This document shows, in pieces, positions 35,583 to 58,863 of a DNA stretch of 64,000 nucleotides (its first letter is position 1; every line of letters starts with the position of its first letter). The notes beneath the pieces were generated by a model. The model did not search any database. It saw only the letters and a list, made by a program, of their open reading frames with translations, and was not told the DNA's origin. Source of the stretch: Teredinibacter turnerae T7901. GTDB lineage: Bacteria > Pseudomonadota > Gammaproteobacteria > Pseudomonadales > Cellvibrionaceae. The position numbers and the translations under genes are program-made. Location: the NCBI RefSeq assembly GCF_000023025.1, contig NC_012997.1, forward strand, positions 4,647,125 through 4,711,124. The letters run 5' to 3'.

Positions 35583-36047
35583 TCAACAAGCCAAGTCTTT
35601 AACCTGTTTGTGAACCATCGCTTTTGCAAGCCTTCCACTTTTGACGGTTTCAGCTATACCGCTCTCGGACGAACAACCTTGAAGGATAGGTAGCGCAACA
35701 TCCCTGACCAGCCTTGATACTTTCTCTTTACGCCGCTGATCGGACAATGACTTGTTTTCCAAGTCGAATACCGATTCAATTTGTTTACTCTCTTCTTCAG
35801 AAACAACAGCGGTCAATCGAAAGCGAATGTGGCAATGATGCTCTTTAGGAAACTCGGCCGCCCCCAACGATTTCAAAGCAACACCACCATTCACATAGTA
35901 TTGGTCACCGTATTGAGATTTCTGGAGATCAACCAGTAAAACAACCTCGTCGTTAGCCCAATACCAACTGTCCGACTTCTTCTTGAAACCTGCATCTTTG
36001 AGAGGCGCACCAAGCGCCTCTTTTATCAACTTTGAGTCCACCATCAT
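35583..36047 (-). CDS. DUF4304-type immunity protein
   Basis: 154 residues, MMVDSKLIKEALGAPLKDAGFKKKSDSWYWAND, in parts, followed by a VLLVDLQKSQYGDQYYVNGGVAL strand, which matches DUF4304, a family often found next to polymorphic toxins. Its ATG overlaps the Rhs toxin stop by 4 bases (ATGA). This tight coupling with the toxin tail supports immunity function: neutralising the nuclease in the cytoplasm of the producer. The pairing is inferred, not shown. Confidence 0.78.
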   Translation of the reverse strand: MMVDSKLIKEALGAPLKDAGFKKKSDSWYWANDEVVLLVDLQKSQYGDQYYVNGGVALKSLGAAEFPKEHHCHIRFRLTAVVSEEESKQIESVFDLENKSLSDQRRKEKVSRLVRDVALPILQGCSSESGIAETVKSGRLAKAMVHKQVKDLAC

Positions 36048-39000
36048 TCATAAGTCTCCACTCTACTAGTCCAACATTCGCCCGTGGTGCATTGCAGTTC
36101 TTGGCGATAACCTTCGACTTGTTTTTCACCACGACGAATAGCATTTGGATTATTTGGTTTTAACTCGACGACTTCGCGCGTTTCCCAGTTAACGGCATCA
36201 GCTCGTTTTCCACTTGGCAAAGTAACTTCCTTTTCAAAGCCGGGACCATAATCGTAATCCTTGTGCATTTGACGGCCTTTTGCAGCTGCCTCTGCTACTT
36301 TCGGATTCTGTGCGCCTCGCAGTCCACTCTCTGTAACCTCCTTCCCTTTCCGTCCCTTACTAAAAAGCCGAGCAGCTTTTCCTATATTTTTAGCTATACC
36401 TACGCCAGCCGCGCCGGCAGCAGCTGCAACGGCAACCTCTCCCAGATCCACCTCGCCGGTTACGGCGTACTGAATTGCCGCATCCATTGCAGCACCAATC
36501 GCGGCACCCACTAGAACCTGAATAAATTCCCCATCAGGATCATTATATTTATAAGGGTTATTATTTACATAGGCATAGCGGTTAAAGCCATGCGCTGGAC
36601 TATTCCCTCTTTGCAGATGGCCCAAAAAGTCTACAGGATCATTCGACAAAAACCGACCAATAACTGGATCATAATACCGAGCGCCAGCATAATTTAGCCC
36701 CGTATCAGCATCATATAAATGTCCAGTGTAACCTAGCTCAGACTCCAAAGGAAGATCCAAGGCCTCACCAAAAGGCATGTAGTGATGCCGACTAATAATG
36801 TCGCCCGACTCATTACTTCTCGCGACAACAGACCCCAAAAGATCGCCATGAATGTAAGTTGTAGATTTATCCACTTCCTGAAAAATCCAAAACGCACTCC
36901 ACCACCCGGATGGGGCATATGAATAGCGCAAACCATTTTCCACATTGAGCGCTGCATACGGATCGCTTGATTTTTTTAGCCGGAAAACATGGCCACCATA
37001 AACTGTGTCTTGAAGCCCTTCAACGGGCTCCACATTATCCCAAATACTTTCAGGCATTGTGCCGAAACACGCATTGACATCGCTACCTATCGAGCAAAGT
37101 GTCGACTGACTCCGATGATAATTTTTAAAATAATAGCCAAATGAACTGCCTACGCTATAGCCATGCACACTCCACAGTGCAGAATTCCAGCCTGGCAATA
37201 TCGGGCCAGCCTCTACACCCTGATTTTCCATGTTGAGAAACCAATCGCGAGCCCAATAATTTTGGATGCGGTAAAGCGGAGAGAGCTTTCTGGTTACCTT
37301 TGAAACTAAGGCATTGCCCAGATATATATAATTTGACTGCCATTCACCGCTAGTTTCGTACAAAAGTTTCCCGTTGATACCGTATAAGTAATAGGTGGTT
37401 ATGCCTCCACTTATTTTTTTAAATCGCATTCCGTTAGCGTCATACTCGTAATACTCCTCACCTGCGCGTATTACTCGATTCTGTAAATTATACTCTAAAG
37501 TCAGATCACCACTCGATGTTGTATTTCCTTTTTCATCGTATAAAAATGATTTATCCAAACTACTATCATTAAATGGTACGTTTGAGCTAACACGCTCCAG
37601 CCGGTTAGTATTTTGGCCATACTCATAACTAAGCGAGCGCCGGCTGTTGCTATAACTTTTTATATTACCTAAATCGTCATATAGTACGGACATTGATCCG
37701 TATGCCGAAGAGCTCGATAACGCAGTTAAAAATCGATCCATAGGATCGTAAGTCATACTGTAAATACTGTAGGCCGGCATAACAGGGTCGATAATGCTAC
37801 GTACGTTACTATTCGCATCATAGGTGTAATTTAGGTTAACATTTGTTGTACCGCCGTTTTTATCTGTGATACTCTTCGGGCGAAACAGCTCATCCCGCAC
37901 TATCGTTCTAGCAATACCATTCCCAAATATTAGTGATCTCAAATCTCCATTTGCGCTATAGCTAACCTCGGAAATAATTTTATCCGCTGTATTTAATCGA
38001 CCGTCAAATACACTTGTAATTGCCCTTACACCGCCGCGAGCGTCAGGAGCATAGTTGTATTTGGTTCCGTCAGGGTATGTGATAGCCTCTATATATCCGT
38101 AGGCATCGATATTATAGTCTAACGATATCTCACTACCTTCGATATTTAATATCTCCTGCTCGACAGCTCCCAACGAAGTGTATTTGTATTTACGCGTTGG
38201 CCCAGGGGTAAGTGAACTAACTTTTACCCTGCTATTCTTATCGTATCCATAGCTTATTACTGAACTCCCATTCCCGAAGCTTTTTTTCGATATATTTCCA
38301 AGATTGTCATAGTAGTATCGAATTTTGTTTTCGCTTGAAACAGAATAGTCGCAACCTTTCGGGGCTGTATCATGGTAGCCAACGCTCGCTTCCCAACTGA
38401 GCAAATTGTTTACTTGATATTCATAGAGCTTTGCACCTACATCAATCCTACTGGTTTTACAGAGGCGCTGATGATCGTCGTACGATCTATATTCTGTCAC
38501 CCCAGCTTGCGTTATTTCTTCTGCTAAGCCGAACCTGTTGTAAATAATCGAAGTTGTTACAAAGTCAGGATTTTCAATTTCCGAGGGTAAGCCTGGCTCT
38601 CCTGACACCAATCTTAGATAACTAGTGGTCGTTGGCTGACCTCGACCATTTTTATGCGTTATTTTATTTCCACTTGCGTAAGTGTTTTTTGTTACATAGT
38701 TAAAGTCCGTATCTTTTGTATTTAGTAACCTACCTAGGGCGTCATATTCATAAGTGACACCACCTAAGGAGTTAGAGCTGTTGGCCTCGCGCCCTGCAAA
38801 TGTTGTACGACCCAGATAATCATAGGCTTTTCTTTTATAACGTTTATCGGAAGGAAAGGTGGAGTCAAGCGAATAATTAAACACCTCTTTACCAACTGCA
38901 TTGTAGTAAGCAACTTCGAACAGATCTCCTCTTTGCGTGGTAATCTTTTCCATACCCGCTTCAACATCAACAAAACCCTCTGATGAAACGGTATGCTGGT

Positions 39001-41305
39001 AACTGATATTTATGTCGTGCCACTTAGAATCGCAATAGTCTATTTTTCTAATTTTACCCACACCGTTATAGTCAAGGTCGGCACAGTTACCTTCAAAGTC
39101 TGAAATTTTTTTTTGCCAACCGTTATCATCAACAGTTGTGTACTGGTACTTGAAACCACTGCCCTCACTCATTGGCTTCGTTATCGTTTGCGCAACACCT
39201 CTTTTATAGTCTGAATAGTCCGTCCAGGTACCATTCTGCTCTACTCGGTAAGCCAGCCCATTAGCGTGATATTTTACATACTTCTTTTGAGCACTGCCGT
39301 TCAAATAAACTTGATATGGAAGCAAAGGGTAAGATGAGGTCGCAGAATAGTACTCTATCTTGTCAACTTCCGAATACGAGACCCCATCGTCCGAGACAAA
39401 TTTTTCATGGGGCAAACCAAGAACCCACAAATTTTCGTCGTTAGTATACGTATATTTCTGATATTCCTTCCAGTCGCTGAAATTATTGGATACTTCTGAT
39501 ATTTTCAAGAAACCAAATTCATCAAAATACGAATACTTTTGGTTAAAGACATCTTCACCATCATCATAATAGTAGGATTCTTTTGCCAATTCCGGTCTTA
39601 TTCGATAGTAGAGCTTGTTTCGATTCTTGTGATAATTATCGTTAGCTAGTTTCCCGACCTCTTCACCAATTTTTTTGTAGGTAAACTCTGATCGTTTTAG
39701 CAACACCTCGCTATCTTTATCGAAAACATCTACCGCGATTACCTGGTTTTCAGTTATTGATTCAAACCGTCGATCAACATATGAAATTTCAATTTTTTTC
39801 GGACCCGTGATTTTCACAGACCGATAGTTCAACGGATTTGTGATTATAGGCGGCAACTCCCCATATGAAGCTCTAATTGGTTCTGGTTTGGGGATATTCA
39901 TTTGGTTGACTTCTCCATCGTCATAATCATCTATATCCCAACTAGAAAAATCCCAGTATTCGCCGGGATTTTCTGAATATTCATATTCCCATACTGCTGT
40001 TTCCACCCCAGGACCACTTACTTCACGCTCAACCAATGACCCCGTAATCGTGCAATTGATGTCCGTTGCAACCCATGGTATCGGCGGCGTCATATAAAAC
40101 GGATCTATCAACTCATTCAACCCGATATAAACGTTGGTTCTTCCGTGATATACGGCCTTGAATCCGTATTTAACTTTATATCCCTCAGGCGTTAAAAAGT
40201 AGGTACTTTTAATTTCAGAGTTATTTCCCCAGTCTTCACAAATAAATCTACCCTCGTAGCGATTACTCGCTTTAATCGAGTCACTATCAGGAATAAGATG
40301 ATACAAATCTTTGTGATACTTCCAACTTGTTTGGTCCGGCAATATCGCTTTTGTTAACCAATAGCCACCATCTCCGTGCTCATATATCCATTCGCGCCCG
40401 TTCGCGGTAGCTTTGACGGCTCTGCGGCCGGATAGCCCCACAAAATCCTCACTACCGATTTGATCATACTCAATATCGATGCGCCGCCCATCCGAGGCAA
40501 TAATCGATTTCATCTCGCCATAGCTGTCGTAGTTGTAGGTCACATAGTTACCAAATCGATCCTCTATACGCGTCGCCATAATGAGACGAGTTTTTGCTGG
40601 CCCCACGAATTTACCAATGTCGTTTGCCCTATTATAGTAAGTACGAACCTGGTTAAACGTGTACTTAAATCCGTTGGGCGATAAGACGACAAACCCCTCT
40701 TGCCCGTTGGGATTTTGCAAACATTCGACAACTTTATAATTTGATTTTGTAACTTGCTGCCCAGCCGAATTTATTAGCAAGAGATCATCAGTAGTATTAG
40801 GAATATGTAAATACTTCCCCTGCCAAAAGTGATTTATTCCGTAATAGTATTTGTTGTTGTAACTAAACTGTACTGAAGATCCAGTACAGTTTTTACCGTG
40901 GTACCAGGATGACTCATTGTCCCACTCATAATAATGCGCTGGCTGTTTCGTATATGGCACTGCACCGCGTATATATGGGATATCCCAAACCCATCCGCCG
41001 GGACCCCCTGTTTCAGAGGTTTCATCCGTCGGCAGTACTCGCGTCAACTCGACCGGGATATCAAAATTACCAGGGATGGATATGTCAGTGGTTCTTAAAG
41101 ATATTTTTCCAGTTGCGTAATCATAGTTTTCTCCCTCGACCCAGGCGTTTTTTACTCTGGCGACTCTGGAATCTTTAACCATCTGCTCCACTTCGCCTAT
41201 ACCGAATGTAACGCCATCCCCAGAATCCACGGCAGCGTTCACCGTCACTGCAAAAACAACGCTACATAGACAAAAAACGACACTCAAAAAATTATTCACT
41301 GACAT
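36044..41305 (-). CDS. Secreted Rhs/YD-repeat toxin with ricin-like insert and nuclease tail
   Basis: 1753 residues. Signal peptide about 1-24 (ending VTVNAA); N-terminal beta-rich region; YD repeats from about 600 to 1340 (YDALGRLLN, YDKNSRVKV, YDDLGNIKS); a ricin-type lectin-like insert about 1343-1479 (YRIQNYWARDWFLNME and PSGWWSAFWIFQEV); the Rhs core end GARYYDPVIGRFLSNDPVD and NRYAYVNNNPYKYNDPDGE (to about 1594). The variable tail (1595-1753) has a hydrophobic stretch and a PD-(D/E)xK-like motif: Asp1703 (KRADAVNW), then VVELKP with Glu1714 and Lys1716. No PAAR or VgrG is visible, so export is probably Sec-dependent. Composition is clearly more AT-rich than the neighbours, suggesting transfer. 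Confidence 0.88.
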   Translation of the reverse strand: MSVNNFLSVVFCLCSVVFAVTVNAAVDSGDGVTFGIGEVEQMVKDSRVARVKNAWVEGENYDYATGKISLRTTDISIPGNFDIPVELTRVLPTDETSETGGPGGWVWDIPYIRGAVPYTKQPAHYYEWDNESSWYHGKNCTGSSVQFSYNNKYYYGINHFWQGKYLHIPNTTDDLLLINSAGQQVTKSNYKVVECLQNPNGQEGFVVLSPNGFKYTFNQVRTYYNRANDIGKFVGPAKTRLIMATRIEDRFGNYVTYNYDSYGEMKSIIASDGRRIDIEYDQIGSEDFVGLSGRRAVKATANGREWIYEHGDGGYWLTKAILPDQTSWKYHKDLYHLIPDSDSIKASNRYEGRFICEDWGNNSEIKSTYFLTPEGYKVKYGFKAVYHGRTNVYIGLNELIDPFYMTPPIPWVATDINCTITGSLVEREVSGPGVETAVWEYEYSENPGEYWDFSSWDIDDYDDGEVNQMNIPKPEPIRASYGELPPIITNPLNYRSVKITGPKKIEISYVDRRFESITENQVIAVDVFDKDSEVLLKRSEFTYKKIGEEVGKLANDNYHKNRNKLYYRIRPELAKESYYYDDGEDVFNQKYSYFDEFGFLKISEVSNNFSDWKEYQKYTYTNDENLWVLGLPHEKFVSDDGVSYSEVDKIEYYSATSSYPLLPYQVYLNGSAQKKYVKYHANGLAYRVEQNGTWTDYSDYKRGVAQTITKPMSEGSGFKYQYTTVDDNGWQKKISDFEGNCADLDYNGVGKIRKIDYCDSKWHDINISYQHTVSSEGFVDVEAGMEKITTQRGDLFEVAYYNAVGKEVFNYSLDSTFPSDKRYKRKAYDYLGRTTFAGREANSSNSLGGVTYEYDALGRLLNTKDTDFNYVTKNTYASGNKITHKNGRGQPTTTSYLRLVSGEPGLPSEIENPDFVTTSIIYNRFGLAEEITQAGVTEYRSYDDHQRLCKTSRIDVGAKLYEYQVNNLLSWEASVGYHDTAPKGCDYSVSSENKIRYYYDNLGNISKKSFGNGSSVISYGYDKNSRVKVSSLTPGPTRKYKYTSLGAVEQEILNIEGSEISLDYNIDAYGYIEAITYPDGTKYNYAPDARGGVRAITSVFDGRLNTADKIISEVSYSANGDLRSLIFGNGIARTIVRDELFRPKSITDKNGGTTNVNLNYTYDANSNVRSIIDPVMPAYSIYSMTYDPMDRFLTALSSSSAYGSMSVLYDDLGNIKSYSNSRRSLSYEYGQNTNRLERVSSNVPFNDSSLDKSFLYDEKGNTTSSGDLTLEYNLQNRVIRAGEEYYEYDANGMRFKKISGGITTYYLYGINGKLLYETSGEWQSNYIYLGNALVSKVTRKLSPLYRIQNYWARDWFLNMENQGVEAGPILPGWNSALWSVHGYSVGSSFGYYFKNYHRSQSTLCSIGSDVNACFGTMPESIWDNVEPVEGLQDTVYGGHVFRLKKSSDPYAALNVENGLRYSYAPSGWWSAFWIFQEVDKSTTYIHGDLLGSVVARSNESGDIISRHHYMPFGEALDLPLESELGYTGHLYDADTGLNYAGARYYDPVIGRFLSNDPVDFLGHLQRGNSPAHGFNRYAYVNNNPYKYNDPDGEFIQVLVGAAIGAAMDAAIQYAVTGEVDLGEVAVAAAAGAAGVGIAKNIGKAARLFSKGRKGKEVTESGLRGAQNPKVAEAAAKGRQMHKDYDYGPGFEKEVTLPSGKRADAVNWETREVVELKPNNPNAIRRGEKQVEGYRQELQCTTGECWTSRVETYE

Positions 41306-47144: not shown

Positions 47145-47432
47145 GTGAGTCTCGATTTCAGCCTTTTTATTTCAGTTCTTTGCCTGCACCTGCTTATTTT
47201 TATCCGCAGCCATAACCCGCAAAAACGACGGCGCCTGTTATTCGCCGTTGCCATCATCGGGCTTGCGGTTCCGCTCTTTTTTATTGGGTTATTTTTGGGG
47301 TTGGGTGGCAACTATACTTTTCGACATCTGGCGTTTGGGCTTACCGCTTCGCCGACCTATATGCCGCTGTTCAGCCTGTGTGTGTACGTAAAATTTCTCA
47401 AGCCTGCACAGCTCGACAAGCACTCGAATTAA
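47145..47432 (+). CDS. Small three-helix membrane protein
   Basis: 95 residues if started at the GTG at 47145; there is no good ATG alternative in the 5' half. Hydrophobic segments FSLFISVLCLHLLIFI, LLFAVAIIGLAVPLFFIGLFLG and a weaker PTYMPLFSLCVYV, with a basic RSHNPQKRRR loop. No family recognised. The stop overlaps the stop of the convergent response-regulator gene. Moderate confidence that it is expressed. Confidence 0.5.
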   Translation: MSLDFSLFISVLCLHLLIFIRSHNPQKRRRLLFAVAIIGLAVPLFFIGLFLGLGGNYTFRHLAFGLTASPTYMPLFSLCVYVKFLKPAQLDKHSN

Positions 47433-48340
47433 GCGAGATACTGCAACGCCTTCGCCGCCGCAGTCGTGCGATTTTCCACTTCCAGCTTTTTGTAAATCTG
47501 TTCCAGATGTTTGTTGATGGTGCGCGGGCTGGTTCCCAGTATCTGGCCTATTTCGCGGTTGGTTTTACCTCGTGCGAGCCACAATAGCACTTCCGACTCG
47601 CGGGTGGTCAGCGGCAAGTGTTCGCGCAAGCGCGAGGCTTCATCCGGCTTGTCGTTGTCGATCAAGCGAATCAAAATTTCATTGGGCGCACTGTTGCCCA
47701 AGTACACCAGACGAAGGGACCGGTTTGGTGTTGTCAGATTTACACCCATGCCGATATTTGGCCCATGGGCAAGCCAGGTACGAATTTCCACTTGCAACTG
47801 CTTTTGCAGCCAGTCACCTTGGTTGGCGGCTTCCAGTAATTGATTCACTTGCGGCGTTGTCCAAATAAGTTCACCCGCATTGTTTGCCGCGAACATACAC
47901 TGCCCTGCTGTATCCAACGCCGTCTGCGCGCTGAGTGTGAGCCGCGCGTTGGCAAGGTGCACCCGCATTCGTGCAATTAATTCGCCGTTAACGATGGGCT
48001 TGGTAACATAATCCACGCCGCCCACTTCAAACCCGCGCACCACGTTTTCCGTATCTTTCAGTCCGGTCATAAAAATAACAGGAATAGCACGTAATTCCGG
48101 GTCTGCTTTTAATTGGCGACACACTTCAAAACCGTCCATTGCCGGCATTACTGCATCCAACAAAATAATATCGGGCAACATGCGACGGGCGATGTTCAAT
48201 GCCTGGTTGCCCTCCAGGGCCACCAGGGTGGTCATGCCGGCGGCCTCGAGCGTATCGTTCAGCATACCGACGGTTTCCGGTGAATCGTCGACCACCAGAA
48301 TTAAATCTCTGCGCTCACCATCTGCGCGTTCACTCACCAT
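47429..48340 (-). CDS. Response regulator with LuxR-type output domain
   Basis: 303 residues. Receiver domain about 12-130 with acidic pocket VVDDS, phospho-acceptor Asp62 (ILLDAVMPAMDG) and the conserved Lys in YVTKPI; a middle linker of about 100 residues that looks PAS-like; and a C-terminal LuxR helix-turn-helix (LTTRESEVLLWLARGKTNREIGQIL, in parts, then TINKHLEQIYKKLEV). Its ATG overlaps the kinase gene's stop by one base, so it is the cognate partner of the permease-kinase fusion. The adjacent divergent urt-fmd operon is the likely target. Confidence 0.9.
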   Translation of the reverse strand: MVSERADGERRDLILVVDDSPETVGMLNDTLEAAGMTTLVALEGNQALNIARRMLPDIILLDAVMPAMDGFEVCRQLKADPELRAIPVIFMTGLKDTENVVRGFEVGGVDYVTKPIVNGELIARMRVHLANARLTLSAQTALDTAGQCMFAANNAGELIWTTPQVNQLLEAANQGDWLQKQLQVEIRTWLAHGPNIGMGVNLTTPNRSLRLVYLGNSAPNEILIRLIDNDKPDEASRLREHLPLTTRESEVLLWLARGKTNREIGQILGTSPRTINKHLEQIYKKLEVENRTTAAAKALQYLA

Positions 48341-51300
48341 TATCCGTTTGCCTCTCGTACCGCGTTGTGTTTTCCTGCATCGCGCAGCAGCTCGATAATC
48401 ACGCTAAACTGCACACGAAATATCAATTGCTTAATCTGTTGTACGAAGGCTTCGCCTGCTAACTGCCCCTCTTCTATTTCGCTTATTTTTTGTTTTAACC
48501 CGCTCAAATGGCCTATTTCCGCCAATTGACACAATTCTTCGATCATGGTCTGTGGCGGCATATCAGCCGCAGTAAACTGGCGCTGGGTAAACAGCTCGCT
48601 ACTGCGTTGGGTGTTCGCCAACGGCTGGTACTGCCATTCCAGATCCAGATGAAAGCGCAGTTTTTCCAGCAGCCGCTGCAGCTTTACCGGCTTCACCAGA
48701 AAATCGTCGTACGGATGTTCCAACAGATTCGCCATAGTGTGTTGCTGGTTGTCTTCGCGAATCACGGCGGAGAGCATCATTATCGGTGTATCGTAACCGC
48801 GCTCGCGCAGATCGCTGGCTAATTGAATCCCATCCCTTTCAGGCATCGAGATATCGAGTAAGAATAAATCCGGTACCAGCTCATCGCAGGCGTGCAAACA
48901 GGCCGCCGCACTTTGCGCTTCCAATACGTAAAAACCCAGCGGCCCGAGCATGTCGCTGATTAAACCCCGGTGCGAAGGATCGTCATCCACTACCATAACG
49001 GTGCGCCTTTCACCTTCATAACCGTAAACCCGTTGACTGGAAGGCTGCACTGAGACCGGAGTTACCACTTGCGACAGCATCATCCACACCGTAAACGTAC
49101 AACCACCTTCCGGGTTGTTCACCACTTCCAGGTCACCACCCATAATATCCACCAACAGGCGGGTTATCGTTAGTCCAAGCCCGGTGCCACTGACCTGAGG
49201 TGACCCCGGCGTACGTACCCGTTCAAAGGGACGGAAAATACGTTCCAGTTCATCCTCGGGAATACCAACGCCCGTGTCTTTAATTGAAAATTCCGCTACC
49301 TGACTGCGATAGCGCACAGAAAAACTCACGCCGCCACGCTCGGTAAATTTCACCGCATTGGATAACAGATTAATTAAAATCTGACGCAAGCGTTTTTCAT
49401 CAGTGGTGACATATTCCGCTAACACCGAATGGCACTGGTATTCAAATCGCAGTCCTTTTTCTTCCGCTTGCAACCGAAACATATATACCAACTGATCCAG
49501 TAACGCTGAAATACGCACCTGGTCCCGGTGAATATCCAGGCGTCCGGATTCAATTTTTGAGATATCCAACAGGCCTTCAATAAGGTCGGAAAGATGCTCG
49601 CCGCTGTTGCGAATAACCGAGAGCTGGTAACGCTTGTTTTCGCTGATCTCTTCGTCGTGCTCCAGCAACTGGGCGTAGCCAAGAATGGAGTTTAAGGGCG
49701 AGCGCAGTTCATGGCTAATACCGGTGAGATAACGGCTTTTTGCGCTGTTGGCCGCTTCAGCTTTTTCTTTGGCCTGCTGCAGCTTGCGGTCGGTTTCTTC
49801 GTGCGCGGTGATTTCTTCCTGTAACAAGCGGTTCTGCCGCTGCGACTCCTCCTGCGCAACCAATCGGCTTTCGTGGGCGAGCACAAACAGCCAGGCGACG
49901 ACTCCTGCAATAATCAACAGAATAAAAAAGACTTTCCACAACATCGCCGAGAGCAAGGCATTAGTGGCAGGCAGCGGCGTAAGACTGTTTGTATAAATGA
50001 GCGAGAGCAATACCCCGGTGATTGCCGCCACCACCATAAGCAATGCTGCAAAATGTACCAGCCGCGAATTGAGATGTTCTGCTACCGACTTCGGCAATAT
50101 ATGCGCGAGCAAATCAATCGCCATTTCGGGAATTTTTTTCACCGGCTTGCAGGAATCCTGGCAGCGGGAATCCAGCGAACAGCACAGCGAACAGATCGGC
50201 CCGGCATAAGCCGGACAGTGCGCCATATCCTCCACTTCGTAGTGGTTCTGGCAAATACAGCAGGTACCGCTTTCCGCCTCATCCACCGCAAAAATATGTG
50301 GTTCACGCGCAATATAAAAGCGACCTCGAGTGAGCCAGGCAATGGCCGGCGCAAGCGCGAATGCCGTGGCCAGTGTAATAAAGTGAGCGAGTGCCCGGGC
50401 AATATCCCCGAGCATCCCCAGGTACAGGAAAATACCGACCACGGACGCCGTTACCATGGAGCCGACACCCACCGGATTAATATCGTGCAGATAGGCGCGG
50501 CGAAATTCTATTTTGGGTGGGCTGAGCCCCAGCGGCTTGTTCACCACCAGATCGGACACCAGTGCGCCCACCCAGGCCACTGCCACAATCGCGTAAACGC
50601 CCAGAGTTTTCTCGAACGCGTGATATACCCCCAGTTCCATCAGCAGCAACGCAATCGCTACGTTAAATACCAGCCATACCACGCGGCCGGGGTGACTGTG
50701 AGTCAAGCGGGAAAAAAAATTGGACCAGGCGATAGACCCCGCGTAGGCATTGGTCACATTAATTTTCAGCTGCGACACAATCACAAAGATCCCCGCCAGA
50801 GCCAACGCAGCCTCGGGTTGTTGCACAACGTAGGAAAACGCTAGCATATACATGCGCGCCGGGTCAGCGGCTTTGTCGGCACTCACCCCCTGGCTGAACG
50901 CCAGATAAGCCAACAGCGAACCGGCAAACACCTTTATCACCCCCAGCACGATCCAGCCGGGCCCTGCGGTGAGTACTGCCGCCCACCAGCGAACGCGATT
51001 ATCTGCAGTTTTTTCCGGCAGGAATCGCAGGTAATCCACCTGTTCGCCAATTTGCGCGATCAACGAGAACAGCACCGCCGCCGCCGCGCCAAAATAAATC
51101 AGGCTCACATCGATATCGGGCGTCGCATTGTGCAACCCATCGAAACGCACCCACGCGCGCACCAGTTCGAATTCATGGCCCAACAAAAAAACAAAGGGCA
51201 ACAGTTGGAGTACCACCCAGAGTGGTTGTGTCCAAAGCTGAAAACGACTGATCCAGGTAATGCCGTGGGTCACAATCGGAATCACCACCAGCGAGCAGAC

Positions 51301-51762
51301 GATGTACCCCATCGCCAGCGGGAGTCCAAACCAGAGTTGCAATACCACCGCCAGAATCGCGGCTTCGAGTGCGAAAAAAATAAAGGTGAACGAGGCATAA
51401 ATCAGCGAAGTCGCGGTAGAACCGATATAGCCAAAACCCGCGCCCCGGGTCAGCAGGTCAATATCCACGCCGTCCCGTGCGGCGTAGTAACAAATGGGAA
51501 TTCCCGCCAGCAGAATAATCAACCCTACCAGCAGGATGGCCGTAGCAGCGTTGCTGAAACCGTAATTGAGGGTGATGGTGCCGCCGATGGCTTCCAGGGC
51601 TAAAAACGAGATCGCACCCAACGCGGTGTTGGCGACCCGCAACAGTGGCCAGCGCCGCGCACTCTTGGCGGTAAAGCGCAACGCATAGTCTTCCAGAGTC
51701 TGGTTGTTCACCCACTGGTTGTAGTTGCGTCGAATGCGGAAGATGTCTTGTTTGGCTGTCAT
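48340..51762 (-). CDS. NCS1-type permease fused to hybrid histidine kinase
   Basis: 1140 residues. Residues about 30-480 are a 12-helix NCS1 (purine/cytosine/allantoin/hydantoin) permease; about 500-538 is a Cys-rich knot (CCICQ, HCPAYAGPICSLCCS, CQDSC; eleven Cys) likely to bind zinc or iron; then two more membrane helices (570-590, 608-628) and a coiled coil. Kinase: HisKA with His684 (GISHELRSPLN), HATPase (LINLLSNAVKF, KDTGVGIPE, GTGLGLTI), then a receiver with Asp970 (LFLLDISMPERDG). The C-terminal 120 residues may be an Hpt-like or dimerisation extension. It resembles CbrA-type transporter-kinases in principle but with a different transporter family. Inferred role: sensing urea, amide or a purine breakdown product. 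Confidence 0.9.
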   Translation of the reverse strand: MTAKQDIFRIRRNYNQWVNNQTLEDYALRFTAKSARRWPLLRVANTALGAISFLALEAIGGTITLNYGFSNAATAILLVGLIILLAGIPICYYAARDGVDIDLLTRGAGFGYIGSTATSLIYASFTFIFFALEAAILAVVLQLWFGLPLAMGYIVCSLVVIPIVTHGITWISRFQLWTQPLWVVLQLLPFVFLLGHEFELVRAWVRFDGLHNATPDIDVSLIYFGAAAAVLFSLIAQIGEQVDYLRFLPEKTADNRVRWWAAVLTAGPGWIVLGVIKVFAGSLLAYLAFSQGVSADKAADPARMYMLAFSYVVQQPEAALALAGIFVIVSQLKINVTNAYAGSIAWSNFFSRLTHSHPGRVVWLVFNVAIALLLMELGVYHAFEKTLGVYAIVAVAWVGALVSDLVVNKPLGLSPPKIEFRRAYLHDINPVGVGSMVTASVVGIFLYLGMLGDIARALAHFITLATAFALAPAIAWLTRGRFYIAREPHIFAVDEAESGTCCICQNHYEVEDMAHCPAYAGPICSLCCSLDSRCQDSCKPVKKIPEMAIDLLAHILPKSVAEHLNSRLVHFAALLMVVAAITGVLLSLIYTNSLTPLPATNALLSAMLWKVFFILLIIAGVVAWLFVLAHESRLVAQEESQRQNRLLQEEITAHEETDRKLQQAKEKAEAANSAKSRYLTGISHELRSPLNSILGYAQLLEHDEEISENKRYQLSVIRNSGEHLSDLIEGLLDISKIESGRLDIHRDQVRISALLDQLVYMFRLQAEEKGLRFEYQCHSVLAEYVTTDEKRLRQILINLLSNAVKFTERGGVSFSVRYRSQVAEFSIKDTGVGIPEDELERIFRPFERVRTPGSPQVSGTGLGLTITRLLVDIMGGDLEVVNNPEGGCTFTVWMMLSQVVTPVSVQPSSQRVYGYEGERRTVMVVDDDPSHRGLISDMLGPLGFYVLEAQSAAACLHACDELVPDLFLLDISMPERDGIQLASDLRERGYDTPIMMLSAVIREDNQQHTMANLLEHPYDDFLVKPVKLQRLLEKLRFHLDLEWQYQPLANTQRSSELFTQRQFTAADMPPQTMIEELCQLAEIGHLSGLKQKISEIEEGQLAGEAFVQQIKQLIFRVQFSVIIELLRDAGKHNAVREANG

Positions 51763-52101
51763 GGGTTAATCATCGTACACCATTTGGCGCTCTTTGCATT
51801 CTTTAGATTGCGTGCCATCGGCGTACGCACTTGCATGGCTTCACCCCGCTCTCGACCTGTTCCAGCTACCGCCAGCTACGGCTAGCTGAACCCAAACCAG
51901 CGGGTTAAGCAATTGTCTGCAACACTCGCGGTCGCGCGACCATAGCACTCCACCGCCTGCTGCGCCTATGCGTCAAATGACGTAGGCGCATGCGCATATA
52001 CGCGAATAGGCATACAGTGTAAAAATTTCAATACTGGTTCCCGTTGCTACACACATGCGTTCACCCCCGAGCGCATACCTATACAACAACGAGGAAACCC
52101 C
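51763..52101. promoter_or_regulatory. Divergent control region between the kinase gene and urtA
   Basis: 339 bases. The main feature is a long dyad at 51964-51987, GCCTATGCGTCA-AA-TGACGTAGGC in two arms with one slip, about 115 bases before the urtA ATG, followed by the palindrome GCGCATGCGC. It shares ACGTAG/CTA-GCG half-sites with the dyads upstream of Nit1C. No good sigma-54 box was found (a TGG...TTGCT pair is 2 bases too close). A LuxR-type regulator site is the inference. Confidence 0.5.
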
Positions 52102-53364
52102 ATGAAAAAAGTCCCCCTTAGCAAAGCTCTTGGCCGCTACTCGCGGCGGGCACTGTTGTGCGCCACGGCTGCTCTCAGCGCCTCGGTCATGTTAGCCACT
52201 GCGGCATACGCCGCACCTAAAACGGCTGCCGTTAACACCACCGGCCTGGCGGTAACTGACGACGAAGTCACCGTCGGTATTCTGCACTCGGTTACTGGCA
52301 CCATGGCGATCAGCGAGACTGGCTCCGTGCAGGCTGAAAAACTTGCCATTGAGCAGATCAACGCAATGGGCGGTGTCCTCGGCCGCAAAATAAAATACAT
52401 TCAGGAAGACGGTGCCAGTGATTGGCCGACCTTCGCCGAGAAATCGAAAAAGCTCCTGGTGAACGACAACGTAGCGGCGGTATTCGGCTGCTGGACCTCC
52501 GCGTCTCGCAAAGCGGTACTGCCCGTATTCGAGCAATACAACGGCATGCTGTACTACCCGACCTTCTATGAAGGATTGGAACAGTCACCCAACGTTATTT
52601 ACACCGGCCAGGAAGCAACCCAGCAAATTCTTGCGGGTATCGACTGGGTAGTAAAAGAGAAAGGTGCGAAGAGCTTCTTCCTGCTTGGCTCCGATTACAT
52701 CTGGCCCCGTACTTCCAACAAAATTGCGCGTAAGCATATCGAGAAAAAAGGCTTAAAAGTGGTGGGCGAAGAGTACTACCCATTGGGCCACACACAGTTC
52801 AACTCGGTTATCAACAAAATCAAATTGAAAAAGCCAGACGTTATCTACGGAATTGTTGTTGGTGGTTCTAACGTGGCTTTCTACAAGCAACTTAAAGCCG
52901 CAGGTATCGATCTCACCAAAGAAAAACCCCTGCTGCTCACTATTTCTGTAACCGAAGACGAAATCCGCGGTATTGGCGGCGAGAATATCGAGGGCGCCTA
53001 CGCGGCGATGAAATATTTCCAAAGCCTGGACAACCCCAACAACAAAGCCTTTGTGAAAGCGTTTAAAGCAAAATACGGCGAAGACATTGTTATCGGCGAC
53101 GTAACGCAAGCGGCTTATCTGGGCCCCTGGTTGTGGAAAGCGGCGGTTGAAAAAGCGGGCTCATTCGATATCGATAAGGTACGCGAAGCATCGCCCGGTA
53201 TCGAGCTGACAACTGCACCTGAAGGTTATGTGCGTATTCACGAGAACCATCACCTGTGGTCAAAAACCCGTGTCGGCCACGCCAAAAAAGATGGTCAGTA
53301 CGATGTTGTTTACGAGACCAAAGAACTGATGGAACCAGATCCCTTCCCCAAAGGTTACCAGTAA
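52102..53364 (+). CDS. urtA: Urea/short-chain amide ABC transporter, substrate-binding protein
   Basis: 420 residues. A long signal with twin arginines (GRYSRRALLCATAAL) that may use the Tat route. The mature protein is a type I periplasmic binding protein of the UrtA/FmdD group: VTVGILHSVTGTMAISETGS, GGVLGRKIKYIQEDGASDWP, VAAVFGCWTSASRKAVLPVFE, YYPTFYEGLEQSPNVIYTGQ. These residues are shared by urea binders and the amide binders linked to formamidase, so the ligand may be formamide rather than urea given fmdA in the operon. First gene of urtABCDE-fmdAB. Confidence 0.92.
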   Translation: MKKVPLSKALGRYSRRALLCATAALSASVMLATAAYAAPKTAAVNTTGLAVTDDEVTVGILHSVTGTMAISETGSVQAEKLAIEQINAMGGVLGRKIKYIQEDGASDWPTFAEKSKKLLVNDNVAAVFGCWTSASRKAVLPVFEQYNGMLYYPTFYEGLEQSPNVIYTGQEATQQILAGIDWVVKEKGAKSFFLLGSDYIWPRTSNKIARKHIEKKGLKVVGEEYYPLGHTQFNSVINKIKLKKPDVIYGIVVGGSNVAFYKQLKAAGIDLTKEKPLLLTISVTEDEIRGIGGENIEGAYAAMKYFQSLDNPNNKAFVKAFKAKYGEDIVIGDVTQAAYLGPWLWKAAVEKAGSFDIDKVREASPGIELTTAPEGYVRIHENHHLWSKTRVGHAKKDGQYDVVYETKELMEPDPFPKGYQ

Positions 53365-53392: not shown

Positions 53393-53466
53393 AATTGCCT
53401 TCCAGATATTTTTTACCGGCTTTCTCGGCGAACTCAGGAAACCGGAATCGCGCAAGAGGAAACAAT

Positions 53467-54393
53467 ATGTTCTCTGACTACTCAACAGCAGAATTAGTCT
53501 CCATCTTTGCCATGCAGGGGTTCGCCGGACTCATTTTGTTTTCGGTGTTCGTCTTAATGGCATTGGGCCTCGCCATTATTTTTGGCCAGATGGGCGTTAT
53601 TAATATGGCCCATGGCGAATTTATGATTTTGGGTGCATATGTCACCTACCTTATATCCAATTTATTTTCTGAATATATGCCTGCCCTGTTCGGGATCTAC
53701 TTTTTTATCGCGATGATCGCTGCATTTTTTACCGCCGGTGCACTCGGTGCATTTGTGGAATGGGCAATGATTCGCCACCTCTACAAGCGACCGCTGGACA
53801 CCCTGCTCGCAACCTGGGGCTTGAGCCTGATTATGCAACAGCTGTATCGCACCGTGTTCGGCGCCCGTGAGGTTGGCGTTTCGCTGCCAGACTGGCTGAT
53901 GGGTTCCATTCCAATGACCGACACCATCGATATTCCCATTAACGGTCTTTTTGTTATGGGGCTCACTATTGTTATTTCCGTATCCGTTTATCTATTGATG
54001 TTTAAATCCCGCTGGGGCGGCCAGGTTCGCGCAGTTGTGCAAAACCGTCCCATGGCAGGCGCGGTGGGCATTAACACCGAAAAAAGCGACCGCATGACGT
54101 TTGCCCTTGGATGCGCCATTGCCGGTGTTGCCGGAAGCGCATTTACCATGATTGGTTCAACCGGCCCGACCGCAGGCCAGCTTTATATTGTGGATACCTT
54201 CCTGGTGGTGGTATTTGGCGGTGCGCAAAGCCTGCTCGGCACCATTGCGTCGGCGTTCACTATTTCCCAAGCGCAATCGACGATGGAATTTTTCCTCTCC
54301 GGCTCCATGGCCAAAGTTCTTACCCTGCTTGTTGTAGTCGGTATTTTGATGCTGCGCCCGCAAGGTTTGTTCGCACTCAAAATTCGTCATTAA
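53467..54393 (+). CDS. urtB: Urea/amide ABC transporter permease UrtB
   Basis: 308 residues from the ATG at 53467, preceded by AGAGGAAAC; an earlier in-frame ATG at 53395 has no ribosome site and would add a hydrophilic leader. LivH-type permease with about eight helices and the family segments IFGQMGVINMAHGEFMILGAY and MIRHLYKRPLDTLLATWGLS; the loop MAGAVGINTEKSDRMTFALGC contacts the ATPases. Works with UrtC in the inner membrane. Confidence 0.92.
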   Translation: MFSDYSTAELVSIFAMQGFAGLILFSVFVLMALGLAIIFGQMGVINMAHGEFMILGAYVTYLISNLFSEYMPALFGIYFFIAMIAAFFTAGALGAFVEWAMIRHLYKRPLDTLLATWGLSLIMQQLYRTVFGAREVGVSLPDWLMGSIPMTDTIDIPINGLFVMGLTIVISVSVYLLMFKSRWGGQVRAVVQNRPMAGAVGINTEKSDRMTFALGCAIAGVAGSAFTMIGSTGPTAGQLYIVDTFLVVVFGGAQSLLGTIASAFTISQAQSTMEFFLSGSMAKVLTLLVVVGILMLRPQGLFALKIRH

Positions 54394-54409
54394 TCGGAGG
54401 CCACGCTTT

Positions 54410-55552
54410 ATGTCGAAAACTACGCTTCGCGCATTTATGCCCCGTCAGGATCTAATCAGCTTTGTGGTACTGGCGGTGGTTATTTTTATCGTGATGCCTC
54501 TGTGCACCGATATTTTCCGTCTCAATTTAATAGGCAAATACCTCACCTACGCCTTCGTTGCAGTTGGCCTGGTACTCTGCTGGGGTTACGGCGGTATTCT
54601 CAGCCTTGGCCAAGGTGTATTTTTTGGGCTTGGTGGTTACTGCATGGCGATGTTTCTTAAATTGGAAGCATCAACCCCTGAAGCAACAAAAATTCAGTCC
54701 ACACCAGGCATTCCCGATTTTATGGACTGGAATCAGCTCACCGAACTGCCGTGGTTTTGGGAACCCTTCCACAGCCTGCCGTTTACTATTATCGCGGTTT
54801 TAGTGGTGCCCACGATATTTGCCTACATAATCGGCGTGGCCATGTTTAAGCGTCGCGTGGGCGGTGTTTACTTCGCGATTATTACCCAGGCCATTGCATC
54901 CATTCTGACCATTCTGATAATTGGCCAGCAAGGTTACACCGGCGGCGTCAATGGCATTACCGATTTACGTACACTGCTCGGCTGGGATATTCGCACCGAT
55001 TCGGCCAAATACGTATTGTATTTTGTGAATGGTATTTTGTTATTCGCTTGCCTGCTGTTCGCGCAATTTGTTCGCAAAAGCAAGCTCGGCCGCATTTTAT
55101 TAGCAATGCGCGAGCGCGAAGATCGGGTTCGCTTTTCCGGCTACGACGTATCCAACTTCAAAACGTTTGTGTTTTGTATGGGGGCGGCATTCTCCGCAAT
55201 TGGCGGCGCTATGTTTACCCTGCAAGTGGGTTTTATGTCGCCGTCTTTTGTCGGCATCGTACCTTCAATTGAGCTTGTTATTTTCTGTGCCGTGGGCGGT
55301 CGCATGTCCATTATCGGCGCGGTCTACGGCACATTGTTAATCAACTGGGCCAAAACGACCTTTTCCGAATCCTTCCCGGAACTGTGGCTGTTTGCCATGG
55401 GCGCGCTGTTTATCGGTGTAGTAATGGCCTTCCCCTCCGGCCTAGCGGGCCTGTACCAAACTCACGCCAAGCCCTGGGTCGATAAAGCGCTTTTCAAGTT
55501 GCTTAGTCAGCGCGAGAGCACCAATAGCAATTCACCCGTAACCGCAGACTGA
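54410..55552 (+). CDS. urtC: Urea/amide ABC transporter permease UrtC
   Basis: 380 residues, LivM-type permease. About ten hydrophobic helices; characteristic WGYGGILSLGQGVFFGLGGYCMAM, GVYFAIITQAIASILTILIIGQQGYTGG, in parts, and the ATPase-contact loop LLAMREREDRVRFSGYDVSNFK. It begins 16 bases after urtB with a GGAGG site. Partner of UrtB. Confidence 0.92.
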   Translation: MSKTTLRAFMPRQDLISFVVLAVVIFIVMPLCTDIFRLNLIGKYLTYAFVAVGLVLCWGYGGILSLGQGVFFGLGGYCMAMFLKLEASTPEATKIQSTPGIPDFMDWNQLTELPWFWEPFHSLPFTIIAVLVVPTIFAYIIGVAMFKRRVGGVYFAIITQAIASILTILIIGQQGYTGGVNGITDLRTLLGWDIRTDSAKYVLYFVNGILLFACLLFAQFVRKSKLGRILLAMREREDRVRFSGYDVSNFKTFVFCMGAAFSAIGGAMFTLQVGFMSPSFVGIVPSIELVIFCAVGGRMSIIGAVYGTLLINWAKTTFSESFPELWLFAMGALFIGVVMAFPSGLAGLYQTHAKPWVDKALFKLLSQRESTNSNSPVTAD

Positions 55553-55563
55553 GGAGCCTGACC

Positions 55564-56310
55564 ATGGTTGATAAAAAAGATTTCGTGCTGGCCGTAGAAG
55601 GGCTCACGGTCTCATTCGACGGATTCAAAGCGGTAAACGATCTTTCGTTTTATGTGGAAGAAGATGAAATTCGGGTAATTATCGGGCCTAACGGCGCAGG
55701 CAAAACCACCGTGCTGGATTTAATTTGCGGCAAAACTCAGGCAACCGATGGCTCGATTAAATTCCGCGGTAAAGAACTGACCAAGATGTCGGAGCACGCC
55801 ATCGTACACGCAGGAATTGGCCGCAAATTTCAGAACCCCTCTATTTACGAAGATCTGACAGTTTTTGAAAACCTGGAAATTTCGTTTCCGCGTGGTCACG
55901 GTGTATTCGGTGCCCTGGCATTTAAGCGCGATGCAGAAGTGATCGCCGCGGTAGAAGAAGTCGCCGAGACTATTTTCCTTTCTGAGGATTTAAATAAAAC
56001 CGCAGGACTGCTGAGTCACGGCCAAAAGCAGTGGCTGGAAATCGGCATGCTGCTGATTCAAAAGCCGGATTTGCTGATGCTCGACGAACCCGTCGCCGGG
56101 ATGTCTGTCGCCGAGCGTAAAAAAACTGCCGAATTACTCAACCGTATTACGCAAGGGCGCTCAGTGATTGTTATTGAACACGACATGCAATTTGTGGAAG
56201 ACATCGCGCACCGGGTAACGGTGCTGCACCAGGGCAAAGTACTGTCGGAAGGCTCCATGGAGCGGGTTAAAAATGACCCGAAAGTGGTTGAAGTATACCT
56301 AGGTCATTAA
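55564..56310 (+). CDS. urtD: Urea/amide ABC transporter ATPase UrtD
   Basis: 248 residues, LivG-type ATPase. Walker A GPNGAGKT (about 41-48), signature LLSHGQKQWLEIGML, where the usual LSGGQ is replaced by LSHGQ as is normal for UrtD, Walker B LLMLDEPVAGM, and the switch His in VIVIEHDMQF. Eleven bases after urtC. Confidence 0.94.
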   Translation: MVDKKDFVLAVEGLTVSFDGFKAVNDLSFYVEEDEIRVIIGPNGAGKTTVLDLICGKTQATDGSIKFRGKELTKMSEHAIVHAGIGRKFQNPSIYEDLTVFENLEISFPRGHGVFGALAFKRDAEVIAAVEEVAETIFLSEDLNKTAGLLSHGQKQWLEIGMLLIQKPDLLMLDEPVAGMSVAERKKTAELLNRITQGRSVIVIEHDMQFVEDIAHRVTVLHQGKVLSEGSMERVKNDPKVVEVYLGH

Positions 56311-56324
56311 GCGGAGAAGAAACC

Positions 56325-57014
56325 ATGTTTGCCGTTTCCAATTACAGCGTGGCCTATGGCCAAAGTGAAGTCATCAACGACATGAACTTCAACGTCAATA
56401 AAAACGAAATCGTCGCCATTCTCGGGCGCAACGGGATGGGAAAAACCACCTTGATGCGCTCGCTGATCGGCATGATTCCCAGCCGTAGCGGCGAAGTTAC
56501 TCTGGGTGATACCAATATCGCCGGAATGAAAAGCTACGAGCGGGTAAAAGCCGGGGTCGCATTTGTACCCCAGGGCCGAATGATTTTTTCTACCATGACG
56601 GTGAAAGAGAATATCGAAACCGGTTTAACCACCGTAAAAGAAAAAACCATTCCGGAAAATTTGTACGACCTTTTTCCGGTTTTAAAAGAAATGAAAAACC
56701 GCCGCGGTGGCAACCTCTCCGGCGGCCAGCAACAGCAACTCGCCATTGCCCGCGCGCTGGCCAGCAAGCCGGATTTATTGCTGCTGGATGAACCGACTGA
56801 GGGTATTCAGCCTTCCATTATTCGCGATATGGCACGCACATTAAAACGCATCCGCGATGAAATCGGTCTTTCCATCATCGTATCCGAACAGGTCCTGAGT
56901 TTCGCATTGGATATTGCCGACCGCATTCTTGTTATTGAAAAAGGCCAGATTGTGCGCGAGGAATTGCGCGAATCCGTCGATGAAAAGCAAGTGGCCGCTT
57001 ATTTATCCGTTTAA
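56325..57014 (+). CDS. urtE: Urea/amide ABC transporter ATPase UrtE
   Basis: 229 residues, LivF-type ATPase. Walker A GRNGMGKT, signature NLSGGQQQQLAIARAL, Walker B LLLLDEPTEGIQPS. The switch position reads IIVSEQVLSF, with Gln in place of the usual His, which is common in UrtE. Fourteen bases after urtD. It completes the five-component importer. Confidence 0.94.
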   Translation: MFAVSNYSVAYGQSEVINDMNFNVNKNEIVAILGRNGMGKTTLMRSLIGMIPSRSGEVTLGDTNIAGMKSYERVKAGVAFVPQGRMIFSTMTVKENIETGLTTVKEKTIPENLYDLFPVLKEMKNRRGGNLSGGQQQQLAIARALASKPDLLLLDEPTEGIQPSIIRDMARTLKRIRDEIGLSIIVSEQVLSFALDIADRILVIEKGQIVREELRESVDEKQVAAYLSV

Positions 57015-57168: not shown

Positions 57169-58401
57169 ATGACAGAAACCATCATTAAAGTTGATTTAAA
57201 CTCTTCGCCTTACGATAACGAAAAAATACACAACCGCTGGCATCCGGACATTCCCATGGCCGCCATGGTTAAGCCCGGTGATGACTTTATTATTGAATGC
57301 CATGACTGGACCGGTGGCCAGATTAAAGATAACGACGATGCATCCGACGTGCGCGATGTGGATCTTAGCCAGGTGCATTTTCTTTCCGGCCCAGTCGGAG
57401 TTGAAGGCGCGGAACCCGGCGACCTGCTGGTCGTGGATATTCTCGATATCGGCACTTTCTCCGATAGCGAATGGGGTTTTAACGGCTTTTTCTCCAAAAA
57501 CAACGGCGGCGGTTTTTTAACGGATCACTTTCCGGAAGCGCAGAAATCCATTTGGGACATCAGCGGTATGTTCACCAAATCCCGCCACGTACCCGGCGTT
57601 GAATTTGCCGGCCTTGTGCACCCAGGCTTAATCGGCTGTCTGCCTTCGAAAGAAATGCTGGAAGAGTGGAACACCCGCGAAAAAGCCCTTTACGACACCG
57701 AACCCGACCGCATTCCCGCCCTGGCAACGCTACCTTATGCCGACACCGCCCACATGGGTGCAATGGATGCCGACGCGGCTAAAACCGCAGCGGCCGAAGC
57801 CGCGCGTACTGTACCGCCCCGCGAACACGGTGGTAACTGTGATATTAAAGACCTCTCGCGCGGCTCGAAAGTGTACTTCCCTGTTTATGTTAAAGACGGC
57901 GGCCTGAGCGTGGGCGATCTGCACTTTAGCCAGGGCGACGGTGAAATTACGTTCTGCGGTGCTATCGAGATGGCAGGCTGGATTCACATGCGCGTGAATC
58001 TGATTAAAGACGGCATGAAAAAGTACGGCATTAAAAACCCGATCTTCAAACCCAGCCCGATTACCCCAACCTACAACGATTACCTTATCTTTGAAGGTAT
58101 CTCGGTAGACGAAGACGGCAAACAGCATTACCTGGATGTACACATCGCCTATCGCCAGGCCTGTCTCAATGCCATTGAGTATCTCACCAAATTCGGCTAT
58201 TCGCGCGCGCAAGCCTACGCAATTTTGGGGACCGCGCCGGTGCAGGGGCATATCAGCGGCGTAGTGGATATACCCAACGCCTGTGCGACCTTGTGGCTGC
58301 CGACGGAGATTTTCGATTTCAGTATTCAACCTGGCGAGGATGGCCCAACCAAAGAACTGGATGGCTCCATTGACGTACCACTGGCGCCAGACAAACCCTA
58401 A
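57169..58401 (+). CDS. fmdA: Formamidase
   Basis: 410 residues, full-length FmdA of the acetamidase/formamidase family, which hydrolyses formamide and short amides to the acid plus ammonia. Family segments: NRWHPDIPMAAMVKPGDDF, HFLSGPVGVEGAEPGDLLVV, HPGLIGCLPSKEML, PPREHGGNCDIKDLSRGSKVYFPV, in parts, and GDLHFSQGDGEITFCGAIEM. It follows urtE by 154 bases without an obvious terminator, so cotranscription with the transporter is likely, which points to amides as the transported substrate. Confidence 0.94.
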   Translation: MTETIIKVDLNSSPYDNEKIHNRWHPDIPMAAMVKPGDDFIIECHDWTGGQIKDNDDASDVRDVDLSQVHFLSGPVGVEGAEPGDLLVVDILDIGTFSDSEWGFNGFFSKNNGGGFLTDHFPEAQKSIWDISGMFTKSRHVPGVEFAGLVHPGLIGCLPSKEMLEEWNTREKALYDTEPDRIPALATLPYADTAHMGAMDADAAKTAAAEAARTVPPREHGGNCDIKDLSRGSKVYFPVYVKDGGLSVGDLHFSQGDGEITFCGAIEMAGWIHMRVNLIKDGMKKYGIKNPIFKPSPITPTYNDYLIFEGISVDEDGKQHYLDVHIAYRQACLNAIEYLTKFGYSRAQAYAILGTAPVQGHISGVVDIPNACATLWLPTEIFDFSIQPGEDGPTKELDGSIDVPLAPDKP

Positions 58402-58509
58402 TTTGTAACAATTGCGGAGCCTCCTGGCCAGCGCTTGAAAAACGCATGTCAGGACGCTCTTGAAAACGCCCGGTTACACCATTCCCACTTTATTACAGAG
58501 AGAAACACC

Positions 58510-58863
58510 ATGCCCGTTTACGATTACAAATGTCAGGACCACGGTATATTCAACGAACTGGCCACCATGGAAGACGCATCCAAACCGGCAGCTTGCCCCA
58601 CTTGTGGCAAGCTTTGCGGTCGCGTAATTATGCTGCCGCCGGAGTTTTTGAATATGGACCCGCACAAGCGGCAAGCGGAAATGACAAATGAAAAAGCGCG
58701 GCATGAACCGGAGTTTTCAACCAAAGAACGGCGGGAGGAGGACCACCACCACAAGAACGGGTGCGGGTGTAGCTCGCATAAGCCCGGAAAATCCAAGCTC
58801 ATGTACACGGCGCGCGGAGAAAAAATGTTTCCCTCTGCACGCCCCTGGATGATCAGCCATTAA
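58510..58863 (+). CDS. fmdB: FmdB-type zinc-ribbon protein
   Basis: 117 residues from the ATG at 58510 (MPVYDYKCQDHGIFNEL). Zinc ribbon: one Cys at residue 8, then CPTCGKLC, as in FmdB, a putative regulator of formamidase genes. A second His/Cys-rich patch EDHHHKNGCGCSSHK could bind another metal. The tail ends FPSARPWMISH. It lies downstream of fmdA as in other fmd operons and is followed by a terminator. Confidence 0.88.
   Translation: MPVYDYKCQDHGIFNELATMEDASKPAACPTCGKLCGRVIMLPPEFLNMDPHKRQAEMTNEKARHEPEFSTKERREEDHHHKNGCGCSSHKPGKSKLMYTARGEKMFPSARPWMISH

Follow-up and report, generated by a model that had tools for sequence, protein, structure and literature searches.

In a stretch of 64,000 nucleotides from Teredinibacter turnerae T7901 (hereafter the window), one gene encodes a protein in which a divergent permease of the NCS1 type, a cysteine-rich segment and a hybrid histidine kinase are joined in a single chain. 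The best explanation, which we consider probable on the strength of sequence comparisons and predicted structures, is that this protein acts as a receptor which arose from a permease, recognises urea or short-chain amides and controls the genes for their uptake and hydrolysis via its LuxR-type regulator. That such a sensor governs the neighbouring urt-fmd genes had already been proposed in the initial annotation of this DNA; gene linkage lends the proposal support, as does a palindrome conserved at the urt promoter, and the range of ligands proposed can be narrowed.

The fusion itself is real: the 1140 amino acids are encoded by a single open reading frame (48340..51762, minus strand). Residues 1-490 (50293..51762, minus) are predicted to form the permease; they are followed by a cysteine finger, delimited by means of aligned relatives (residues 501-538; 50149..50262, minus), and by two further membrane helices leading into the kinase (residues about 566-632; 49867..50067, minus), for which the model has helices at 566-592 and 598-659. 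The 12 permease helices and the two extra ones had both been claimed before and are both present in the predicted structure. Behind the membrane part, Pfam finds all three of the domains expected there, each above its cut-off, which identifies a hybrid histidine kinase: HisKA (PF00512, residues 674-740; 49543..49743, minus), with H684 conserved in the alignment, HATPase (PF02518, residues 787-896; 49075..49404, minus) and a receiver domain, REC (PF00072, residues 922-1035; 48658..48999, minus). That the fusion is more than a chance occurrence is confirmed by the number of relatives of residues 1-514, which are encoded in at least 579 genome-contig stretches, the best 80 of which were examined. 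Some kinase-fused forms are short, about 890-970 amino acids, and too small for REC (G128:C3, G232:C2, L031, L058, L087). In public records, the kinase-fused protein is found under the names 'hybrid sensor histidine kinase', 'ATP-binding protein', 'response regulator' and 'ArcB'.

In residues 1-490, Pfam recognises no transporter family, and PF02133, the NCS1 model by which this part was to have been identified, has no match to the window protein; the NCBIfam CodB model gives E 1e-5 and 24.5 bits, its cut-off being 326 bits. Compared by hhalign, the aligned relatives reach 97.5% over 429 columns with nine NCS1 permeases, as against 0.2% with six SSS proteins encoded in the same genome as the window, and in a structure comparison of the predicted model NCS1 proteins (CodB, Mhp1) come out on top with SSS chains below them. 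Profile-profile alignment and predicted structure are thus the two lines of evidence that support residues 1-490 as a very divergent NCS1 permease and back the earlier choice of NCS1 over SSS; an SSS input domain is ruled out by the hhalign result. Among the relatives tried with PF02133, L174 and L135 pass, while L153, L166, L169, L170, L171 and L176 fail.

The permease shares with CodB and Mhp1 the fold and the Asn of helix 8 (N335 at CodB Asn280), but differs from them at the Na2 site, in helix 3 and in carrying a finger and a kinase. Where S312/T313 form part of the sodium site of Mhp1 (PMC3812048) and T278/T279 of that of CodB (PMC9379551), the family has K333/I334 instead of the Ser/Thr pair of helix 8, invariant in 59 aligned sequences and conserved to at least 97% in 79; a shift of the alignment by one position would still put K333 on a sodium-site ligand. 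In the alignment to NCS1 proteins, the Trp of helix 3 is replaced by F129, and E133 is located at Gln121 of Mhp1. Given K333/I334 and F129, binding or transport by the permease part may differ from that of CodB. Position 333 holds K or R in all eight distant stand-alone relatives and in none of nine other NCS1 proteins. Since kinase-free relatives share it, the change is independent of fusion to the kinase, and Lys333 as the mark of a non-transporting receptor is ruled out; with K or R replacing sodium-site residues, sodium coupling is doubtful for this branch of permeases.

The surroundings of the gene in the window agree with what had been read from them at first. Directly downstream, with an overlap of one base, lies the gene of the partner response regulator (303 amino acids; 47429..48340, minus), in which Pfam finds a receiver and a LuxR/GerE helix-turn-helix domain, making it a response regulator of the NarL/LuxR type and confirming the coupled regulator described earlier. 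Divergent from the kinase runs an operon in the order urtABCDE-fmdA-fmdB on the plus strand: urtA (52102..53364; TIGR03407 over cut-off) encodes a binding protein of the urea/amide type, among whose structurally characterised relatives are urea-binding proteins and AmiC; urtB, urtC, urtD and urtE (53395..57014) match genes annotated urtB-E in L168; and fmdA (57169..58401; NF045496 over cut-off) for a formamidase precedes a gene for an fmdB-type zinc ribbon protein (58435..58863; TIGR02605 and NF053663 over cut-off). Elsewhere in the window there are a partial urease alpha gene at the left edge (179-529, minus), beyond which, a few kb to the left, the genome has another urtA, and a gene for an RHS-repeat protein with a Tox-REase-9 end (36044-41305, minus), followed by a DUF4304 gene (35583-36047, minus) that possibly encodes its immunity partner.

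How often the fusion adjoins urt and fmdA, a question raised with the initial annotation, was surveyed in 398 genomes drawn evenly from the phylum, of which 57 gave matches at E 1e-5 or better. Judged by length (open frames of at least 894 amino acids), 57 strong hits in 52 genomes are kinase-fused, and 55 of these hits have fmdA or ureC within 20 kb: 39 lie near a formamidase gene and 18 near ureC, two being near both and two near neither. The two exceptions are located 369 bases from a contig end (G148) and in a fragmented genome (G259). Around L059, the genes ureDABCEFG occur together with urt genes of a second kind. In the annotated stretches beside the relatives examined, neither hydantoinase nor purine-breakdown genes are named. 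Of the ligands first suggested, urea and formamide therefore stand, along with other short-chain amides, since the enzymes encoded alongside are urease, formamidase or aliphatic amidase; for hydantoin and purine breakdown products, those stretches offer no linked gene.

Within the same 20 kb, urtA accompanies 49 of the 57 hits. This bears on another explanation, which we regard as possible though rather doubtful, namely that the fused permease is a working transporter and a sensor at once (a transceptor), signalling transport flux and not occupancy. It would fit the retention of all 12 helices in the model and the conservation of the permease, about 0.64 compared with 0.56 for the kinase core (hand averages from a set that was fetched by the permease and hence is biased), and CbrA, alike in plan, is described with both activities in the parts of the literature consulted (PMC7096432, PMC13022988). 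A dedicated importer, however, is usually at hand, which speaks against it.

Stand-alone permeases related to the fused one also bear on the ligand. In the tree, eight of the 12 lie beside genes for urease, formamidase or aliphatic amidase. Three are found at the ends of urease clusters (L154, L166, L174). The gene of L174 (7956-9563) follows ureG in a urease operon of Klebsiella, is annotated as cytosine permease, matches PF02133 with 38 bits and by its sequence is a member of the permease family of the fusion. Others are divergent from fmdA in Moraxella (L170), upstream of fmdA in Tsukamurella (L171) and directly before an aliphatic amidase gene in Arthrobacter (L176). The gene of L153 (G682) lies between a divergent kinase and fmdA-fmdB, immediately before fmdA, at a locus where the urt queries matched no urt genes; that of a Methylovirgula plasmid (L167) is located downstream of kinase and regulator and adjoins an aliphatic amidase gene, with fmdA about 5 kb off and a urtA fragment beside it. 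In Acinetobacter (L169), the stand-alone permease is divergent from a kinase-fused form; in the stretches examined around it, L165 (4.6 kb), L175 and L177, no urease, formamidase or aliphatic amidase gene was found. The locus of a more distant permease (L135, 7949-12984) resembles an amidase operon that includes a permease gene: behind the NCS1 permease come genes for a C-N hydrolase, an AmiC-like protein and an AmiR-like ANTAR protein. A study of nitrogen starvation and GlnR in Mycobacterium smegmatis has msmeg_3402, known here by its annotation as a putative cytosine permease, and the formamidase gene msmeg_3403 in one expression table, as far as the accessible text goes (PMC4222082).

The 54 kinase-fused rows of the tree form one clade (SH-aLRT 99) with the 12 stand-alone rows outside; the search was short and the outgroup branches are long, which leaves the root unsure. 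These relationships would suit a so far unrecognised NCS1 subfamily of urea/short-chain-amide permeases with a C-terminal finger, one member of which was captured once by a kinase and became a receptor, a wider reading that we consider about evenly balanced. The same operons weigh on the improbable idea that the protein senses a product of the enzymes, such as ammonium, bicarbonate or formate, the linkage then reflecting feedback. Ammonia is indeed a product common to urease and formamidase. The stand-alone relatives, on the other hand, look like substrate uptake proteins, and the closest folds to the permease part in the structure comparison are carriers of cytosine and hydantoins, and both observations argue against this idea.

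The cysteine segment calls for a correction. The window protein has nine Cys in residues 501-538 and not the eleven counted initially; eight are invariant in 59 aligned sequences (C501, 504, 516, 524, 527, 528, 534 and 538), whereas C502 varies. The segment follows helix 12, and the C terminus of the NCS1 fold presumably faces the cytosol, a position from which the 'knot' of the initial annotation, taken as a disulfide cysteine knot, is unlikely. Modelled alone (76 residues, 17 sequences), the finger reaches a pLDDT of 76.5, with about 90 in residues 11-40, and its top matches are RING, PHD and FYVE fingers, at a non-significant E of 0.5 or worse. Of the 12 stand-alone permeases, three carry a whole finger (L153, L165, L167) and five a half-finger (L154, L166, L169, L170, L174), with the equivalents of 501, 504, 524 and 527 kept and the other four lost; L175 keeps these plus 516, and in L171, L176 and L177 the finger is largely lost. 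The five half-fingers would fit two interleaved four-Cys metal sites, for which L175 is no clean fit. In view of the half-versions and of the weak RING/PHD/FYVE resemblance, we favour a putative metal finger that belongs to the permease. Redox or metal input had been suggested for this segment, of which redox input is here no more than conceivable; the segment also occurs on kinase-free permeases. For the same segment to be the true sensor, whether of redox state or of metal, with the permease as a mere membrane anchor, is the least likely of the alternatives considered here: eight invariant Cys would suit it, but long stretches of the permease are conserved as much as the finger, which moreover is whole, halved or largely lost on permeases that have no kinase to serve.

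A candidate operator, TGCGTCAAATGACGTA, is located at 51969..51984 in the gap between urtA and the kinase gene, one mismatch away from TACGTCA-N2-TGACGTA; the scan of the window for it allowed three mismatches, at which one match per window is the chance level. A sigma-70 scan of the urtA gap in the window gave no promoter-like site. In the 400 bases upstream of the kinase gene, the palindrome with no or one mismatch is present at 38 of 54 formamidase-type loci and at three of 30 others, counts to be read in the light of the pattern having been taken from some of the loci tested and of many loci being close kin (largely Pseudomonas and Stutzerimonas) and not independent. In 20 shuffles of each sequence, such agreement was never reached. 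At loci with the second kind of urtA, where the kinase gene often does not adjoin urtA, all 14 amenable to examination have a site upstream of the urt operon, with two mismatches in two of them and no more than one in the other 12. Where the locus itself includes urtA, the sites with no more than one mismatch are those of L024, L040, L045, L046, L061, L077 and L088, the ones with two those of L042 and L172; among these nine loci, L024 and L042 show urease genes and the other seven do not. At L021, L029, L033, L059 and L063, the locus breaks off before urtA; searches of the whole genomes revealed, for all five, a site no more than one mismatch off, at distances of 0.19 to 1.40 kb from where the UrtA match starts. 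In L042, a porin gene (1838-2842) fills the gap between palindrome and urtA; the same gene was not found at the other loci, four of which have more than 1 kb between site and urtA.

Whole-genome scans covered 23 genomes, 18 hand-picked from the 52 and the five of L021, L029, L033, L059 and L063, and yielded 25 sites, 18 of them at the urt/fmd locus (one, in G281, beyond fmdA), while the reversed pattern yielded seven. In ten of the 18 hand-picked kinase-bearing genomes the locus has a site with no more than one mismatch, in eight it has none; in both G194 and G281, one of the two kinase loci has the palindrome and the other lacks it, and a second site precedes the fmdA match in G011 (at 156 bases) and G210 (at 134 bases). 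The regulator would, as we infer, bind TACGTCA-N2-TGACGTA. The DNA-binding domain of NarL is likewise of the GerE type. Its sites, according to the portion of the source seen, consist of two inverted heptamers with a 2-base spacer (7-2-7) and TAC/GTA ends (PMC4549865), the same layout and ends as found here. The heptamer TACGTCA is unlike that of NarL, although some loci (L022, L023, L055, L069, L025, L028, L030, L056) have a TGGGGCA- or TACCCCA-like half-site in its place, nearer to the NarL heptamer.

Taken as a mechanism, a permease of the NCS1 type, serving urea or short-chain amides and with a cytosolic finger at its C terminus, would have been fused, probably once, to a hybrid histidine kinase. 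Binding of urea, formamide or a closely related amide to the permease part would rearrange bundle and hash domains, and the movement would be relayed to the kinase through the finger and the two added helices. The kinase would phosphorylate the adjacent LuxR-type regulator, which at the palindrome would switch on the genes for uptake (urtABCDE) and for hydrolysis (fmdA or urease genes). On this view, the same compounds would be handled by two paralogues, the receptor and the stand-alone carrier. Both the direction of control, i.e. switching on, and the permease preceding the receptor are what we infer.

A coupling of permease and kinase has been proposed for CbrA, which has an SSS permease, in the part of that work available (PMC13022988). 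CbrA, CrbS and RpuS, the SLC5/STAC kinases, likewise use a whole LeuT-fold transporter as kinase input and have a partner regulator, as far as the sources seen describe them (PMC9100948, PMC5715377, PMC13022988). Their input is an SSS/SLC5 transporter with a STAC linker, whereas the window protein, in which no SSS/SLC5 domain is found, has an NCS1 permease, a cysteine finger and two helices. A transporter of a nitrogen compound is also joined to a kinase in the ammonium sensor that we take to be named Ks-Amt5. This fusion, in the excerpt consulted, has a transporter of the Amt type and not NCS1 (PMC5764959). On a Klebsiella pneumoniae plasmid (L168), a kinase-regulator pair of the kind found in the window is divergent to urtABCDE-formamidase, and this locus apparently carries the very UTS (urtABC-amiF) described for Klebsiella, although that paper, in the text at hand, describes the UTS without such a kinase and has 'histidine kinase' 0 times (PMC13060141). 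Resistance genes follow about 4 kb beyond the regulator of L168. The permease is matched by 342 Klebsiella records of the plasmid collection, and the fused form was looked at in one, L168. In a further source, kinase and regulator beside urtABCDE are named, the text seen giving no input domain (PMC13296017), and searches of the open-licence literature provided no description of an NCS1-kinase fusion or of an NCS1 urea permease.

Transporter-headed kinases are a known kind, and those found in the literature are of the SSS or Amt type; NCS1 would be a further origin, and what appears, as far as we found, to be new is NCS1 as the family of the input, together with the finger and the circuit for amides and urea. 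The kinase-fused form is present in 52 of the 398 genomes sampled. Carrier and receptor forms occur side by side in L153, L167 and L169, which makes the change from carrier to receptor directly testable and, if our reading is true, traceable gene by gene. Systems for urea uptake and formamidase gain a candidate regulator together with a candidate operator, and the findings point to a secondary urea/amide permease that has so far been named cytosine or allantoin permease.
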